38,305 nt of DNA from Candidatus Thalassarchaeum sp. (GTDB lineage Archaea; Thermoplasmatota; Poseidoniia; Poseidoniales; Thalassarchaeaceae). The notes under the pieces were generated by a model that ran no database searches, was not told where the DNA came from, and saw only the letters and a list, made by a program, of their open reading frames with translations. The stretch lies in assembly GCA_030748335.1 (NCBI GenBank), contig JASMMD010000001.1:31003-69307 (forward strand). Reading direction: 5' to 3'. The position numbers were made by a program, and so were the translations under genes. Positions 3,131-8,786 of the stretch are shown in pieces. Every line of letters starts with the position of its first letter. Within the stretch, counting starts at the first letter, position 1.

Positions 3131-4564
3131 TCAAGCGACTGCCGGTCCGTACCTGACTGGAAGCAGCATCTCGACTCCGAACAGCGGGTCGGGATCGGTG
3201 GAATCGTGGTATGCGATGAAGGCGCCGCCGTCGGGTAGAATTCCCATGCTGGCGAAGTCGAACCTGATGTCGTTGCCAGCCCCGGAAGTCGAGTCTAGGT
3301 CGCCCTGCCCCAAGTAGGTCTTCATGTCGGGGATGAGGCTCTCGGAGTACTCTCTGACGTGCCATGCAACGTCCACGTCAGGCCCCTCGGCACTCTGATA
3401 TCGCACGTTGAGCACGAACAGGTCGTGCTCGCCGTTGGCGTGGAACTCCCATTCCTCCAACTCGGTCGCGACGCCTGAGAGATTGTAGGTCTGGTTTTCC
3501 CAAGTCAGCCCGCCGTCCCATGACAGCATGTGCTGCAGCACGGTACCTCCCGCTGTGACGCAGTGCAGCGCAGTGGAAGAGTCGAATGAGCAGTACTGTG
3601 AAGGTAAACTGCTGCCGTTGGAGTTGGTCGCGGCCCACCAACTCAGCGACGTGTCCAAGTAGGCGTCGACGTCATTGTCGAAGTAGTCTGGGAAGTATAG
3701 TCCGCCCGAGGGTACTGGGAAGGCTCGCATCTCTTTGTGCGGCTTGGTGTAGTCCCACTCCACGCCGAGCGCGAGGAAGTCGAGATCCACTTCCATGACA
3801 TCGAGGTTCGCATCACGGTCTGGGAAGTCAAAGTTCTGGTAGTTCAGCCCGTCAGTGCTAATCTGGCCCCCACGGTTGGCCACCTGGTGCCAGAAGTTGC
3901 TGATGACAATGCTCGCCCATGGTCCACTCCCGTAGATGCTGCTGATCGGGCCCGTCACCTCTACCTGCCACGACCGGTCGTAGAACGCCTCCGGAGGACG
4001 ATTGTAGCACCAGCTCCAATCCTGGTCCTCGGCGTCGTAGAAGAAAGCGTAGAACTGATCTGCCCCGCTGGTGCTCGGGTATGGGAACCAGCCCATGGCG
4101 ATGAGGTCGCCGTTGGTCGCCTGCACTATGCTACCCTCGCCCAATCCCTCTTGGCCGGGGACTGTGGGCTTAGGAAGCAGGCATCCGAACTGGGAGAGTA
4201 TGGTCGGCTGCCACTCCTGCCAGGTCCGACCCCTATCCTCGCTCCAAGTTGGGTACTCGCCTCCGAAGTTGAGGATCCATCCTTCCTTGGTAGCTGCGAG
4301 ATAGTGCTCACAGCAGTTGCCACCATGCTCATTGCCGTAGACAGTCCACGAGGCGTTGCCCCAAGTGGCGTTCAAGAACGGATCGCCTACCGTGAAGTCA
4401 CGCGGGTCCTCGTAGGAAGATGGGAGGTCGATGTAGTGGTAGCCTGAATCCCAAGGAACGGCTCCTTCTCCTTCCGACTCGCCACCTCCGAAGCAGCCAG
4501 CTAGGGACATGCTGGCCACCATCATCACGGCGAGTACCGTCCTTGACCTGCTGCGCCCGACCAT
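3131..4564 (-). CDS. Predicted secreted lipoprotein with BNR/Asp-box (sialidase-like propeller) repeats
   Basis: 477 residues from the ATG at 4564. An upstream in-frame ATG at 4699 would overlap the divergent gene and precede the signal peptide, so the shorter form is preferred. The N-terminus is basic, then hydrophobic, ending in the lipobox LAGC (Cys24) followed by a Gly/Glu-rich linker: an exported protein anchored by lipid on the outer face of the membrane. Two Asp-box motifs are visible, SEDRGRTW (about 108-115) and SWDGGLTW (about 348-355), typical of beta-propeller glycosidases and BNR proteins. The sialidase catalytic Arg triad could not be verified, so an enzymatic role is not claimed; sugar or surface-polymer binding is equally possible. 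Divergent from the amidohydrolase gene, with a strong inverted repeat between them. Confidence 0.8.
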   Translation of the reverse strand: MVGRSRSRTVLAVMMVASMSLAGCFGGGESEGEGAVPWDSGYHYIDLPSSYEDPRDFTVGDPFLNATWGNASWTVYGNEHGGNCCEHYLAATKEGWILNFGGEYPTWSEDRGRTWQEWQPTILSQFGCLLPKPTVPGQEGLGEGSIVQATNGDLIAMGWFPYPSTSGADQFYAFFYDAEDQDWSWCYNRPPEAFYDRSWQVEVTGPISSIYGSGPWASIVISNFWHQVANRGGQISTDGLNYQNFDFPDRDANLDVMEVDLDFLALGVEWDYTKPHKEMRAFPVPSGGLYFPDYFDNDVDAYLDTSLSWWAATNSNGSSLPSQYCSFDSSTALHCVTAGGTVLQHMLSWDGGLTWENQTYNLSGVATELEEWEFHANGEHDLFVLNVRYQSAEGPDVDVAWHVREYSESLIPDMKTYLGQGDLDSTSGAGNDIRFDFASMGILPDGGAFIAYHDSTDPDPLFGVEMLLPVRYGPAVA

Positions 4565-4664: not shown

Positions 4665-7364
4665 ATGCGCGCATCGGCCATCACCTCAATCCTGCTCATG
4701 CTGATGATGGGTCTGGGCCCCGCAATGGTCGCATCTGCGCAGACTGCACCGACAGATGCGATTTACATCAACGAAATCCTAGTCTCTCCCAATAACGAGC
4801 AGTACGACGGCACAGACTGGAACGGTGACGGTTCGATGGGGACCTACAACGACCAGTTCCTAGAACTGCACAATCCAACTTCCGATGCAATAGACATCGG
4901 TGGGTGGTGGCTCGATGATATCTCCGACGGTGGTTCGCCGGCATGCAGCATCGGCTGGGGCACCGTCCTTGAGGCGGGTGCATACATCGCCTTCTACAGA
5001 TCCTGGACGGGAATAGAGTTCGACTTCTGGGATGGGGATACAATTCGCCTGCTCGATGGCTCTGGGACTGAGATGGACTCGGTCAGTTATGGGCCCGAGG
5101 ATTCTGATTGGGATGTACCCTACGGGTACGACTCAAGTGGTAACTGGGCCAAGCTGTCCGACGGGAGCCCGACCCCGGGGGGCGCCAACGACCTAGCATG
5201 GGGGGGCGCCAACCACCTGCAGGGCAACTGCTACCCTCCGCAGGACCATGTTCACAATGGAGAGTACATCCTCGAAGGACGTGTGGTTACGATGGTCTCC
5301 GAGAGCGATATCATCGAAGATGGGAGAATACTGGTACGCGACGGCATAATCGAAGCAGTTTGGAGTGCCGAGGAAGGTGCGCCAGCAACTGCAGCAGGCG
5401 TCATTTCGATTCAAACCAGTGGCACCATTTACCCCGGATTCATTGACCCTCACAACCATGCAAAATACAACCTAATTCCACTCTGGGACCACGGTACAAA
5501 CGGATGGGATAACAGATACCAATGGCAATCCTATTCTGGCTATGGTGATGCAAAGGACATTGGGTGCTCGCTATATGACTCGTCCGCGATGCGATTCGCC
5601 GAACTTCGTGCGGTCGCCGGGGGCAACACCGCGCTGCAGGGTAGCAGCACATCCTCTACGGACACCTTCGAGACAATGCTCGCGCGCAACATTGAACTCT
5701 ACAACTTCGGGAAGGACTACATCCACACCAAGGTCACCGAACTGGAGTCTGATTACTCGGGTCAGCACATCAAAGACGGTAACTCCTCGGGAGAACTCGA
5801 TGCTTGGTTCCTACACCTCGCCGAGGGCATCGATGAGTCGAGTCGCGCCGAGTTCGACATCCTCGTAGAGAACGATCTCCTAGTGGGGGAGGTGGTCATC
5901 ATTCACGGAACGGCACTCACTCAGAACGAGCTCTCTGCCCTAGGCGATGTAGGGGGTAGTCTGGCTTGGTCTCCTACCTCGAACCTGCTGCTGTACGGTG
6001 ACACTACCGACATCGCTACGGCCAAGGCCGAGGGAGTGAACATCATGATTGGCCCCGACTGGGCGCCATCTGGTTCCAAGAGCTCAATGCACGAGTTGAA
6101 GACGGCTGACTGGTGGGACGAGAACATCCTCGGTGATGTGTTCACCGATTACGAATTGGTCCAGACCATTACCACCAACATCGTTGATGCAATTGGTTGG
6201 TCCGAGTATACGGGCCGCATCCAGGAGGGCCTGGCCGCAGACCTAGTCGTGCTCGACACCTTCCGATCTGATCCATACCGCAACGTCGTCGACGCAATCG
6301 ATCCTGACGTTCGCCTAGTCGTCGTGGGCGGGCTGGCGGTCTACGGCGATGTCGACATCATGCAGGCGATGGACGACGAAGTGGAGATTATCCAAGGAGT
6401 GGGCTTCACCAAAGCCACCGATATCACCTACGACGGCGTTCCGGAAGCGCAGCAGACCTACGCCGAAATGCTCACTGCGCTTCAAGAATGCAACCAAGGC
6501 GCTGGAGTACCAATCGAATACCTGTTCACGCTCGGCGACGAGCGCTACTTCGACGTCCTGAACAATTCCCTGACCTTCCAGAGTGGTCGAACCATCGACC
6601 TATGGGGTGATTACTACGATATCGAGCTGAACGAGGACGGGCATCGTGTCGATGGGACCGTCGCAGGAGCCGGTCCGATAGACACCACCCCTCCCAGCAA
6701 CGGCGGCTCCGAAGATACCGAGTCCGCTTGCAGCGACGGTGTCGACAACGATGGCGACCCGTACGTCGACTGCGATGACTACGACTGCAGCGAGACCACG
6801 GTGTGTGGAGGAGGGGGAAATCAGACCGAGGTCCCGGAGCCCGAGCTACCCGTACTGTGGCCAACCTACGGGCCACGGGGAGGAGTCATTCCTCACCTTA
6901 CGACAATTGAGGAGGGGATACACCTCGAGGAGTGCGGGTCAAGCGAGGCAGTCCTCTCAGAGGCCAATGTCCCAACCATCCCTGCCAGCAAGATCCTGCT
7001 GTGCGGCGCCATCATGGTGGTGATGCAGGCTACCGACGAATGCATAGAGACTGGAGGCTCGTTCTGCAACCTCGAGGTTGCTGATGCGGTGGCAGTTCCC
7101 GCTCACCTGTGCACGGATGCGGGCAGCTACCCCGACGAAGTGACCTGTCGGGCTGCATGGTCATTCATCGATACCGAGGAGGAAGAGGAGGAGCCAGAAC
7201 CTGAGCCGGAGCCTGAGAGTGAAGGTTGGATGGATGGACCACTGTACTGGGTCGCAATCTTAGTTGCCCTGATAGTTATCGTAGGCTCGTTGGGCGTGGT
7301 CAACTCAAACCTACGTGCACGCGCAGACAGAGAGCCATCCGTGCTGGTCTCTGAAGAGGAGTGA
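4665..7364 (+). CDS. Exported, membrane-anchored lamin-tail/amidohydrolase/MopE-like multidomain protein
   Basis: 899 residues. A signal peptide (about 1-25, ending near VASAQ) leads into a lamin-tail-like beta-sandwich (about 30-170; INEILVSP, FLELHNPT, GGWWL, GDTIRLLD). An amidohydrolase fold follows (about 198-590) with the metal-site residues of the superfamily: FIDPHNH (His263, His265), HLAEG (His384), IHGTAL (His414) and GPDWAPSG (Asp465), then a typical GLAADLVVLD end segment. A Cys/Asp-rich CSDGVDNDGDP...DC motif near 689-714 resembles the MopE-like putative metal-binding repeat of bacterial surface proteins. A Glu/Pro-rich stalk leads to one membrane helix (about 858-879) and a short basic cytoplasmic tail. 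All expected metal ligands are present, so an active extracellular hydrolase is likely; the substrate (cyclic amide, dipeptide, nucleobase-like) cannot be read from sequence. Confidence 0.85.
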   Translation: MRASAITSILLMLMMGLGPAMVASAQTAPTDAIYINEILVSPNNEQYDGTDWNGDGSMGTYNDQFLELHNPTSDAIDIGGWWLDDISDGGSPACSIGWGTVLEAGAYIAFYRSWTGIEFDFWDGDTIRLLDGSGTEMDSVSYGPEDSDWDVPYGYDSSGNWAKLSDGSPTPGGANDLAWGGANHLQGNCYPPQDHVHNGEYILEGRVVTMVSESDIIEDGRILVRDGIIEAVWSAEEGAPATAAGVISIQTSGTIYPGFIDPHNHAKYNLIPLWDHGTNGWDNRYQWQSYSGYGDAKDIGCSLYDSSAMRFAELRAVAGGNTALQGSSTSSTDTFETMLARNIELYNFGKDYIHTKVTELESDYSGQHIKDGNSSGELDAWFLHLAEGIDESSRAEFDILVENDLLVGEVVIIHGTALTQNELSALGDVGGSLAWSPTSNLLLYGDTTDIATAKAEGVNIMIGPDWAPSGSKSSMHELKTADWWDENILGDVFTDYELVQTITTNIVDAIGWSEYTGRIQEGLAADLVVLDTFRSDPYRNVVDAIDPDVRLVVVGGLAVYGDVDIMQAMDDEVEIIQGVGFTKATDITYDGVPEAQQTYAEMLTALQECNQGAGVPIEYLFTLGDERYFDVLNNSLTFQSGRTIDLWGDYYDIELNEDGHRVDGTVAGAGPIDTTPPSNGGSEDTESACSDGVDNDGDPYVDCDDYDCSETTVCGGGGNQTEVPEPELPVLWPTYGPRGGVIPHLTTIEEGIHLEECGSSEAVLSEANVPTIPASKILLCGAIMVVMQATDECIETGGSFCNLEVADAVAVPAHLCTDAGSYPDEVTCRAAWSFIDTEEEEEEPEPEPEPESEGWMDGPLYWVAILVALIVIVGSLGVVNSNLRARADREPSVLVSEEE

Positions 7365-8786
7365 TTAGGTCAATCGCCAGGTCGGACCATCTGGCCCGTC
7401 CTCGACCACGACTCCCATAGATGCGAGTTCGTCACGAATCTCATCCGCACGAATCCAGTCCTTGGAATCTCTCGCGCTCTCACGCTCGGCCAGAAGTGCC
7501 TCGACCCTGTCTGCCACCTCTGCCTTGGCGGAATCAGCCCGGGCCACCCCCGCCAAGACGTCCTCGGAGGGAGGAAGTAGACCGAGGACGTCCCCGGCGT
7601 GCCTCTCCAACCAAGCCGCCACATCCGATCCGGTAGCCGACGAAACGACTGCTTGGACCTCTATCATAGCGGCTCTGGTGTTGAAGTCGTCGTCCATCGC
7701 AGTAGCGAAGTGCTCGGTGGCTCGAGAGAGATCCGCGCCCGAATCGGAATCTGAGCTGAGCGAATTTTCGTATGCCGTCACGAGCCTGTTGAAGTGAGTG
7801 GTGGCGTCCTCTAGGAACTCCGGAGTCAGGTCGATGGGGTTGCGGTATGGCACGCTCAGCAGTGCATAGCGAAGCGCGAGGGGAGCGTGGTGCTCGAAGG
7901 CATCCCGTATGTTCCAGAAGTTCCCTAGGCTCTTGCTCATCTTCTCGCCATCCACATTGACGAAGCCGTTGTGCATCCAGAACCCGACCACCGGCTCGCT
8001 CCCAGTGCAGCACTCGGACTGGAAGATCTCGGCCTCGTGATGGGGGAACCTCAGATCGTGACCGCCGCCATGGATGTCGAACTGCTCGCCGAAGTGATTG
8101 AGGGACATCGCCGAGCACTCGATGTGCCATCCCGGCCTACCCTCGCCCCACGGGCTCTCCCACGAGGGTTCGCCCGGCTTGGCCAACTTCCAGAGCGCGA
8201 AGTCACGATGGTCCCGTTTGCCCGAGCCTGTGTCTGCTACTCGCCCGCCAGCACCGGCCCTGACCATCCCCAGAGTCTGACCGGTCAACTGCCCGAACTT
8301 CTCCGGGGCTGTGTCGATCTCAAAGTAGACCCCGTCATCGCCGGCGTAGGCGTGGCCCTTGCCCTCTAAGGTAGAAATCATGTCAATTATTTCGGGAATC
8401 GCCTCGGTGACTCTAGGATAGTGATCTGCCCTCAGGATATTCATCGCGTCCATCACCTCCAGGTAATCGTCGATATTCCTGTTGGCTACCACCGAGTAAT
8501 CGACTCCTTCGGAGTCGGAGATTTCTAGAATCTTATCATCGATGTCGGTGAAGTTCTGTACGTAGTCGACATCGTAACCGCTAACCTCCAGCCAGCGGTG
8601 CACCACGTCAAAGGCTAGGTAGCAGCGAGCATGTCCCAGATGGCTTGGCGAGTACGGTGTTATGCCGCAAACGTACATGCTGACTTTACCGTCCTCCAAG
8701 GTCGACAGTTCGCGCTTCCCGCGCGAGCGCGTGTCGTACACTCTGAGTGACATTCGGTCCGGGCTGCGCGGCTTATCGGTCATCAA
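7365..8786 (-). CDS. cysS: Cysteinyl-tRNA synthetase
   Basis: 473 residues, close to the usual 460-470. Charges tRNA-Cys with cysteine. YVCGITPYSPSHLGHAR carries the zinc-ligand Cys and the HIGH-type signature (HLGH). Further zinc-site residues occur in GWHIECSAMS and the GGHDLRFPHHE segment, and the KMSKS loop reads EKMSKSLGNF. A DALR-type helical C-terminal domain follows. The first ATG at 8786 overlaps the stop of the upstream amidotransferase gene by 4 nt (ATGA), implying translational coupling. In-frame Met codons 2 and 12 (MTDKPR, MSLRVYD) are alternative starts; the domain proper begins at MSLRVYD. Convergent with the amidohydrolase gene with no spacer. Confidence 0.97.
   Translation of the reverse strand: MMTDKPRSPDRMSLRVYDTRSRGKRELSTLEDGKVSMYVCGITPYSPSHLGHARCYLAFDVVHRWLEVSGYDVDYVQNFTDIDDKILEISDSEGVDYSVVANRNIDDYLEVMDAMNILRADHYPRVTEAIPEIIDMISTLEGKGHAYAGDDGVYFEIDTAPEKFGQLTGQTLGMVRAGAGGRVADTGSGKRDHRDFALWKLAKPGEPSWESPWGEGRPGWHIECSAMSLNHFGEQFDIHGGGHDLRFPHHEAEIFQSECCTGSEPVVGFWMHNGFVNVDGEKMSKSLGNFWNIRDAFEHHAPLALRYALLSVPYRNPIDLTPEFLEDATTHFNRLVTAYENSLSSDSDSGADLSRATEHFATAMDDDFNTRAAMIEVQAVVSSATGSDVAAWLERHAGDVLGLLPPSEDVLAGVARADSAKAEVADRVEALLAERESARDSKDWIRADEIRDELASMGVVVEDGPDGPTWRLT

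Follow-up and report, generated by a model that had tools for sequence, protein, structure and literature searches.

The gene described here lies in a 38,305-nucleotide stretch of Candidatus Thalassarchaeum DNA (the window) and specifies a protein of 899 amino acids, which is best explained as a subtype III hydrolase that is exported and tethered and that probably deaminates small nitrogen heterocycles; the probability of this reading is put at about 55%. From the N to the C terminus, the protein comprises a predicted export signal, a lamin tail domain (LTD), an amidohydrolase core, an acidic disulfide repeat, a Cys domain, and a predicted membrane helix (Table 1). The component domains are of known kinds, and the enzyme family is uncharacterised. 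The open reading frame, in which an earlier note on this DNA had seen a surface enzyme, is a genuine gene, conserved in the order Poseidoniales (Marine Group II). The host genome is 1.16 Mb in size and 81% complete; its closest relatives with names belong to Marine Group II, among them Candidatus Thalassarchaeum betae at 91% identity.

Table 1. Coordinates of the gene, its parts, and its neighbours (window positions; residues are those of the 899-residue protein).
Feature	Position	Strand	Basis
Whole gene, 899 aa	4665..7364	+	ORF list, Pfam, NCBIfam, homologue searches
Predicted export signal, residues 1-26	4665..4742	+	Hydropathy; hydrophobic segment 5-23, RR pair absent
Lamin tail domain PF00932, residues 27-143	4743..5093	+	Pfam, 53.8 bits against a cut-off of 34.3
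Amidohydrolase catalytic core, approximately residues 196-560	5250..6344	+	Profile matches; borders chosen by us
H263-N-H265, predicted metal ligands	5451..5459	+	Aligned with AtzA His66, His68
H384-L-A-E387	5814..5825	+	Aligned with AtzA metal ligand His243 and Glu246
H414	5904..5906	+	Aligned with AtzA His276
D465	6057..6059	+	Aligned with AtzA Asp327
Core C-terminal extension, residues 561-662	6345..6650	+	No Pfam match over cut-off
Acidic double-disulfide repeat NF033662, residues 683-714	6711..6806	+	NCBIfam; lineage-specific insertion
Cys domain, residues 729-836	6849..7172	+	Six invariant Cys; without Pfam match
Predicted C-terminal membrane helix, residues 861-879	7245..7301	+	Hydropathy; E/P-rich stretch before, NSNLRAR after
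BNR-like neighbour, divergent	3131..4564	-	Start 4564 chosen by us; ORF extends to 4699
cysS, convergent neighbour	7365..8786	-	Pfam, neighbourhood comparison

The catalytic core had been named an amidohydrolase in the earlier note, and Pfam agrees: Amidohydro_1 (PF01979) scores 55.8 bits against a cut-off of 25, with its best stretch at residues 409–556. The core searched alone again returns the amidohydrolase family, and PF01979 is matched at E ≤ 0.001 by all 36 rows of A3, a hand-picked alignment of archaeal and proteobacterial sequences. Among solved chains, the top profile match is AtzA (4v1x, E 4e-19), and a MTA/SAH deaminase is also among the nearest. When residues are counted in the profile alignment with a 20-residue offset, H263, H265, H384, E387, H414, and D465 correspond one-to-one to AtzA His66, His68, His243, Glu246, His276, and Asp327. 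In AtzA, as described for the enzyme, four histidines and the aspartate ligate the metal of a mononuclear subtype III site, with Glu246 acting as the base in the proposed mechanism (PMC4356373). The pattern of this subtype (HxH, a histidine with a glutamate at +3, a histidine, and an aspartate at equivalent places) is present in the sequence, and the site is assigned from it as a putative mononuclear, deaminase-type subtype III site. The full set of metal ligands proposed earlier is thus recovered by alignment to a solved chain, which is the sole basis for placing the ligands in one site within a TIM barrel. AlphaFold models were too poor to use, with a mean pLDDT of 41.6 for the whole protein (31 alignment rows) and 43.1 for the core (35 rows), probably because the alignments were shallow.

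All six active-site residues are invariant in the 36 rows of A3; in A2, an alignment of 31 close relatives, a single row, from a metagenome-assembled sequence, has P in place of H at 265. Also invariant in A3 are Y268, N269, W274, R284, W287, R341, N342, E344, S436, P437, S439, N440, Y444, W466, P468, S469, G470, E477, and K479. AtzA and the ATZ/TRZ-like subtype III amidohydrolases share the metal and proton-shuttle residues one-to-one, but AtzA is distant and matches the core only, and the family of the window protein has a conserved set of its own near the ligands (Y268, N269, W274, R284, and W287; W466, P468, S469, and G470). Beyond the core, the C-terminal extension contains an LDP...DD..F stretch, a similar form of which is seen by eye in bacterial members.

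Function models point tentatively towards deamination. Among the 25 of 31 NCBIfam matches listed, none of the 24 amidohydrolase-type models exceeds its cut-off, so no reaction is assigned; the best curated models among the matches listed, all below their cut-offs, are deaminases. The first of these by E-value, guanine deaminase (TIGR02967, E 3e-19), scores 69.3 bits against an equivalog cut-off of 375.4. From these nearest relatives in sequence we infer a deaminase step. Guanine deaminases carry a glutamine three residues after the second histidine, a place occupied here by the A3-invariant Y268. Haloarchaeal LTD proteins have been treated alongside extracellular DNA (PMC5118699) and, taken with the resemblance to guanine deaminase, this leads to a first guess that the substrate may be a nucleobase-like compound.

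It is possible, though on balance unlikely, that the protein is a subtype III enzyme of the cell surface that is not a deaminase and instead opens a cyclic amide in the manner of imidazolonepropionase or displaces another leaving group. Imidazolonepropionase performs its ring opening with the same ligand set; its model matches weakly (E 6e-10) and its chains are among the solved-chain profile matches, although both deaminase models and deaminase chains outscore them. AtzA, itself a dechlorinase (PMC4356373), shows that the scaffold is capable of dehalogenation.

It is improbable that the protein is a binuclear amidohydrolase acting as a peptidase or dipeptidase at the surface. Prolidases of the amidohydrolase fold exist, and the Xaa-Pro dipeptidase model does match (E 3e-6, best stretch residues 211–266), albeit with 26.3 bits against a cut-off of 500. 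Binuclear members of the amidohydrolases typically possess a bridging lysine; in A3, the stretch from the HxH to H384 contains no invariant or nearly invariant lysine, and thus a bridging lysine is not conserved. Marine Group II archaea have been portrayed as degraders of protein that are equipped with extracellular peptidases (PMC6336850, PMC6864105), which would suit such an enzyme, but the HxH, HxxE, H, and D set aligns with a mononuclear site. With a putative mononuclear, deaminase-type site, dipeptides, which the earlier note had put forward for activity screens, are not the best first substrates.

Export and anchoring were judged by hydropathy alone. The N-terminal hydrophobic segment reaches a KD value of 1.97 at residues 5–23 and the C-terminal segment 2.63 at residues 861–879, with a weaker third peak of 1.82 at residues 769–787, inside the Cys domain. 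Segments were counted at a KD threshold of 1.6, with the exclusion of duplicates, sequences containing X, and those with no stop codon, no HxH stretch, or an HxH before residue 96. Of the 58 distinct archaeal homologues that have a stop codon, 55 show both segments and all 58 show the C-terminal one; among the three exceptions, two (L023 and L051) are truncated by the contig start, and the third (L108) has an N-terminal score of 1.37. At the same threshold, neither terminal segment occurs in any of 10 bacterial relatives, one of which (L133) had shown one internal hydrophobic peak in an earlier hydropathy scan. The archaeal protein is therefore predicted to be exported and anchored in the membrane by its C terminus, and the surface-tethered hydrolase envisaged at the outset gains support from these counts and from the LTD found in 25 of 25 Poseidoniales rows of A3.

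The signal region lacks a twin-arginine pair, which fits export of an unfolded chain through Sec and hence metal loading outside the cell; metal or substrate may be acquired there. In the mechanism proposed for the tethered deaminase, the chain would leave the cell via Sec and then fold outside, binding one Zn or Fe(II) held by His263, His265, His384, Asp465, and possibly His414, and the C-terminal helix would tether the hydrolase to the outer face of the cell membrane. The metal-bound water, with Glu387 and His414 as putative proton shuttles, would attack a carbon atom in a small nitrogen heterocycle or a compound related to one; ammonia would most likely be released, and the cell would import the reaction product. 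As modules for surface, spacing, or stability functions, the model has the LTD, the Cys domain, and the acidic repeat.

Several Poseidoniaceae homologues (L112, L114, L116-L118, and L122) carry FVP..P-rich tails after the membrane helix, and another LTD protein (L126) likewise ends in such a tail. When FVPxxPPxxPP was sought as a shared sorting tag in three genomes, the sole match was this gene itself in G059, in a weak test: in the other two genomes, even the tails of the homologues themselves escape the strict pattern.

The LTD is the only one matched in the (incomplete) host genome. It is found in 25 of the 36 A3 rows and in none of the 11 A3 rows from outside Poseidoniales; thus, all 25 Poseidoniales rows carry it. 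Two successive LTD-like stretches precede the core in homologues at L122:857-3910, G048:C20, and G043:C103. The acidic repeat NF033662 (acid_disulf_rpt, cut-off 41) scores 42.7 bits in a six-frame search and 36.2 in hmmscan of the whole protein; it is present in this protein in 12 of the 13 genomes of the genus, over the cut-off in 11, and a simple pattern detects it in one further locus (L057). This repeat is what the Cys/Asp-rich stretch resembles, and the MopE-like label given to it earlier is wrong, the MopE motif PF11617 having been rejected with no match in the window protein up to E 10. In the same genome, PF11617 finds four stretches, two of them over the cut-off, in a 1285-aa frame (G000:C3:12434-13387). 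The domain order read from the sequence holds for the predicted signal, LTD, amidohydrolase, Cys/Asp repeat, and predicted C-terminal helix; it fails in the MopE identity and had passed over the Cys domain. The latter, in which cysteines 757, 780, 793, 801, 816, and 828 are invariant in A2, was without a match in the Pfam search, and across 30 genomes searched it occurred solely in frames of this gene, in 14 genomes.

An LTD next to a membrane-associated hydrolase is a known theme (PMC6085458). The nuclease ExeM likewise combines a signal, an LTD, and a hydrolase, and haloarchaeal LTD proteins are likewise membrane-associated; the LTD hydrolases covered in these accounts are, however, nucleases, metallo-beta-lactamases, and phosphoesterases, whereas the window protein is an amidohydrolase (PMC6085458, PMC5118699). 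The generalisation that amidohydrolases are usually cytoplasmic, from which the earlier note started, needs a caveat, as secreted members exist: the metalloBSH of Bilophila is described as a secreted amidohydrolase-superfamily enzyme with a C-terminal domain (PMC13081902). It differs in having a bile-salt substrate, and the likeness drawn here is one of description.

Some match to the protein was found in 51 of 60 related genomes (own included), and a match including D465 in 47 of the 60, comprising all 13 genomes of the genus, 14 of the other 24 in the family, and 20 of the 23 in the order's second family. At E ≤ 1e-40, the core is matched in 78 of 148 family genomes, and 9 of the 11 genera of the family have it; such counts go beyond chance. 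With 70 family genomes unmatched, the gene is not universal. Because many of the genomes are incomplete, little weight attaches to any one absence; among the 14 family genomes that are at least 90% complete, however, only 7 have the core, so some absences are real. A search of 389 genomes of the phylum gave three good matches outside the order, with 38%–43% identity (G097, G267, and G270), and the best remaining match outside the order covered a short stretch at E 4e-11. Of these three proteins, L110 (from G270) shows the two hydrophobic segments; L109 (G267), truncated by the end of its contig, shows the N-terminal segment; and L108 (G097) combines a strong C-terminal helix with the weaker N-terminal segment noted above. 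CARDB occurs in L109 and L110, and the LTD in none of the three.

A version without the core is found in G021, where a 393-aa gene (L138:2253-3434, G021:C30) lies between cysS and the BNR-like gene in the orthologous locus. Its product has a hydrophobic N terminus, an LTD-like part, a Cys domain, and a hydrophobic C terminus, and it aligns with window residues 7–189 and 728–884 only, the part at 190–727 being missing. The gene is on a 208-kb contig, although its short form may stem from an assembly error. The surface modules seem to be a unit able to exist without the enzyme, and thus their role at the surface may not depend on catalysis. A surface adhesin or receptor in which the catalytic domain survives as a relic or serves for binding is highly improbable: although the G021 product joins the LTD to the Cys domain directly, the catalytic residues are invariant throughout A3, and among the 148 family genomes G021 alone gave one match that spans both surface modules and lacks the core.

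Bacterial relatives of the enzyme are encoded on proteobacterial plasmids, with 29%–31% identity (33%–38% in the core for the 11 strong plasmid rows, H1–H11, of which 10 were fetched and 8 placed in A3). They come only from plasmid records because the single contig scan used archaeal protein stretches. The plasmid hosts are Rhizobium, Sinorhizobium, Methylorubrum, Enterobacter mori, Massilia, Variovorax, Cupriavidus, and Azospirillum. These proteins, named 'amidohydrolase family protein', share the subfamily, the full-length core, and the same invariant residues with the window protein, but are 517–551 aa long in 9 of the 10 fetched, possess no LTD in any of the 8 scanned, and are without the terminal hydrophobic segments. 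The Azospirillum protein (L130) has 965 aa, with an extra N-terminal part of approximately 450 aa. In an unrooted maximum-likelihood tree, in which L130 and L108 form long branches, a branch with 100/100 support splits the archaeal from the bacterial set. The two sets are predicted to be exported archaeal and unexported bacterial forms of one catalytic family. A comparison of the bacterial neighbours gave no substrate hint. Once transposases, overlapping frames, and three similar rhizobial loci (L129, L135, and L136) are set aside, the only shared neighbours are one of 437–448 aa, common to L128 and L132, and a distant GMC oxidoreductase, common to L128 and L130. In Variovorax (L132), the next gene is weakly like uracil-DNA glycosylase (E 0.008, under the cut-off).

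Among the planktonic archaea of surface waters, Marine Group II is described as the most abundant (PMC6461757), and its use of organic matter outside the cell is presented in genome papers in terms of peptidases, transporters, and fatty-acid degradation. The word 'amidohydrolase' does not occur in the main text of the Marine Group II genome papers searched. Literature searches combining amidohydrolase with lamin tail domain returned only a paper on tau, those combining Poseidoniales with lamin tail nothing, and those combining amidohydrolase with Marine Group II only decarboxylase work. An enzyme of another kind that is conserved, predicted to be exported, and equipped with a defined active site would give organic nitrogen a testable path at the cell surface. 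Very tentatively, Marine Group II of the surface ocean may hold a new, order-wide family of deaminases tethered outside the cell that free ammonium from dissolved nitrogen heterocycles before uptake, that share an origin with an unexported bacterial enzyme, and whose surface modules can outlive the enzyme.

The neighbourhood of the gene is well kept. Across 46 loci, defined as matches to archaeal protein stretches in the genome-contig scan, the BNR-like gene and cysS are both present in 38 and one of the two in the other 8; cysS is beside the gene in 43, and approximately 1.6 kb separate it from the gene in L040, L051, L064, and L070. In the second family, cysS is in the examined stretch for 13 of 19 genomes. 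These kept neighbours favour vertical inheritance and argue against a recent mobile origin. Viral contigs contained no relative with two pattern stretches, and phage records contained no relative. The BNR-like protein, 46%–97% identical (longest piece) across the loci that carry it, has a lipobox-like LAGC and Asp-box-like stretches, both seen by eye, and matches Pfam BNR_2 weakly and below the cut-off (E 0.029); this predicted lipoprotein is a possible functional partner. In one assembly, two copies of the ileS-to-cysS region (L071 and L075; G006) carry broken frames of this gene, and the duplication may reflect strain mixture or sequencing error.
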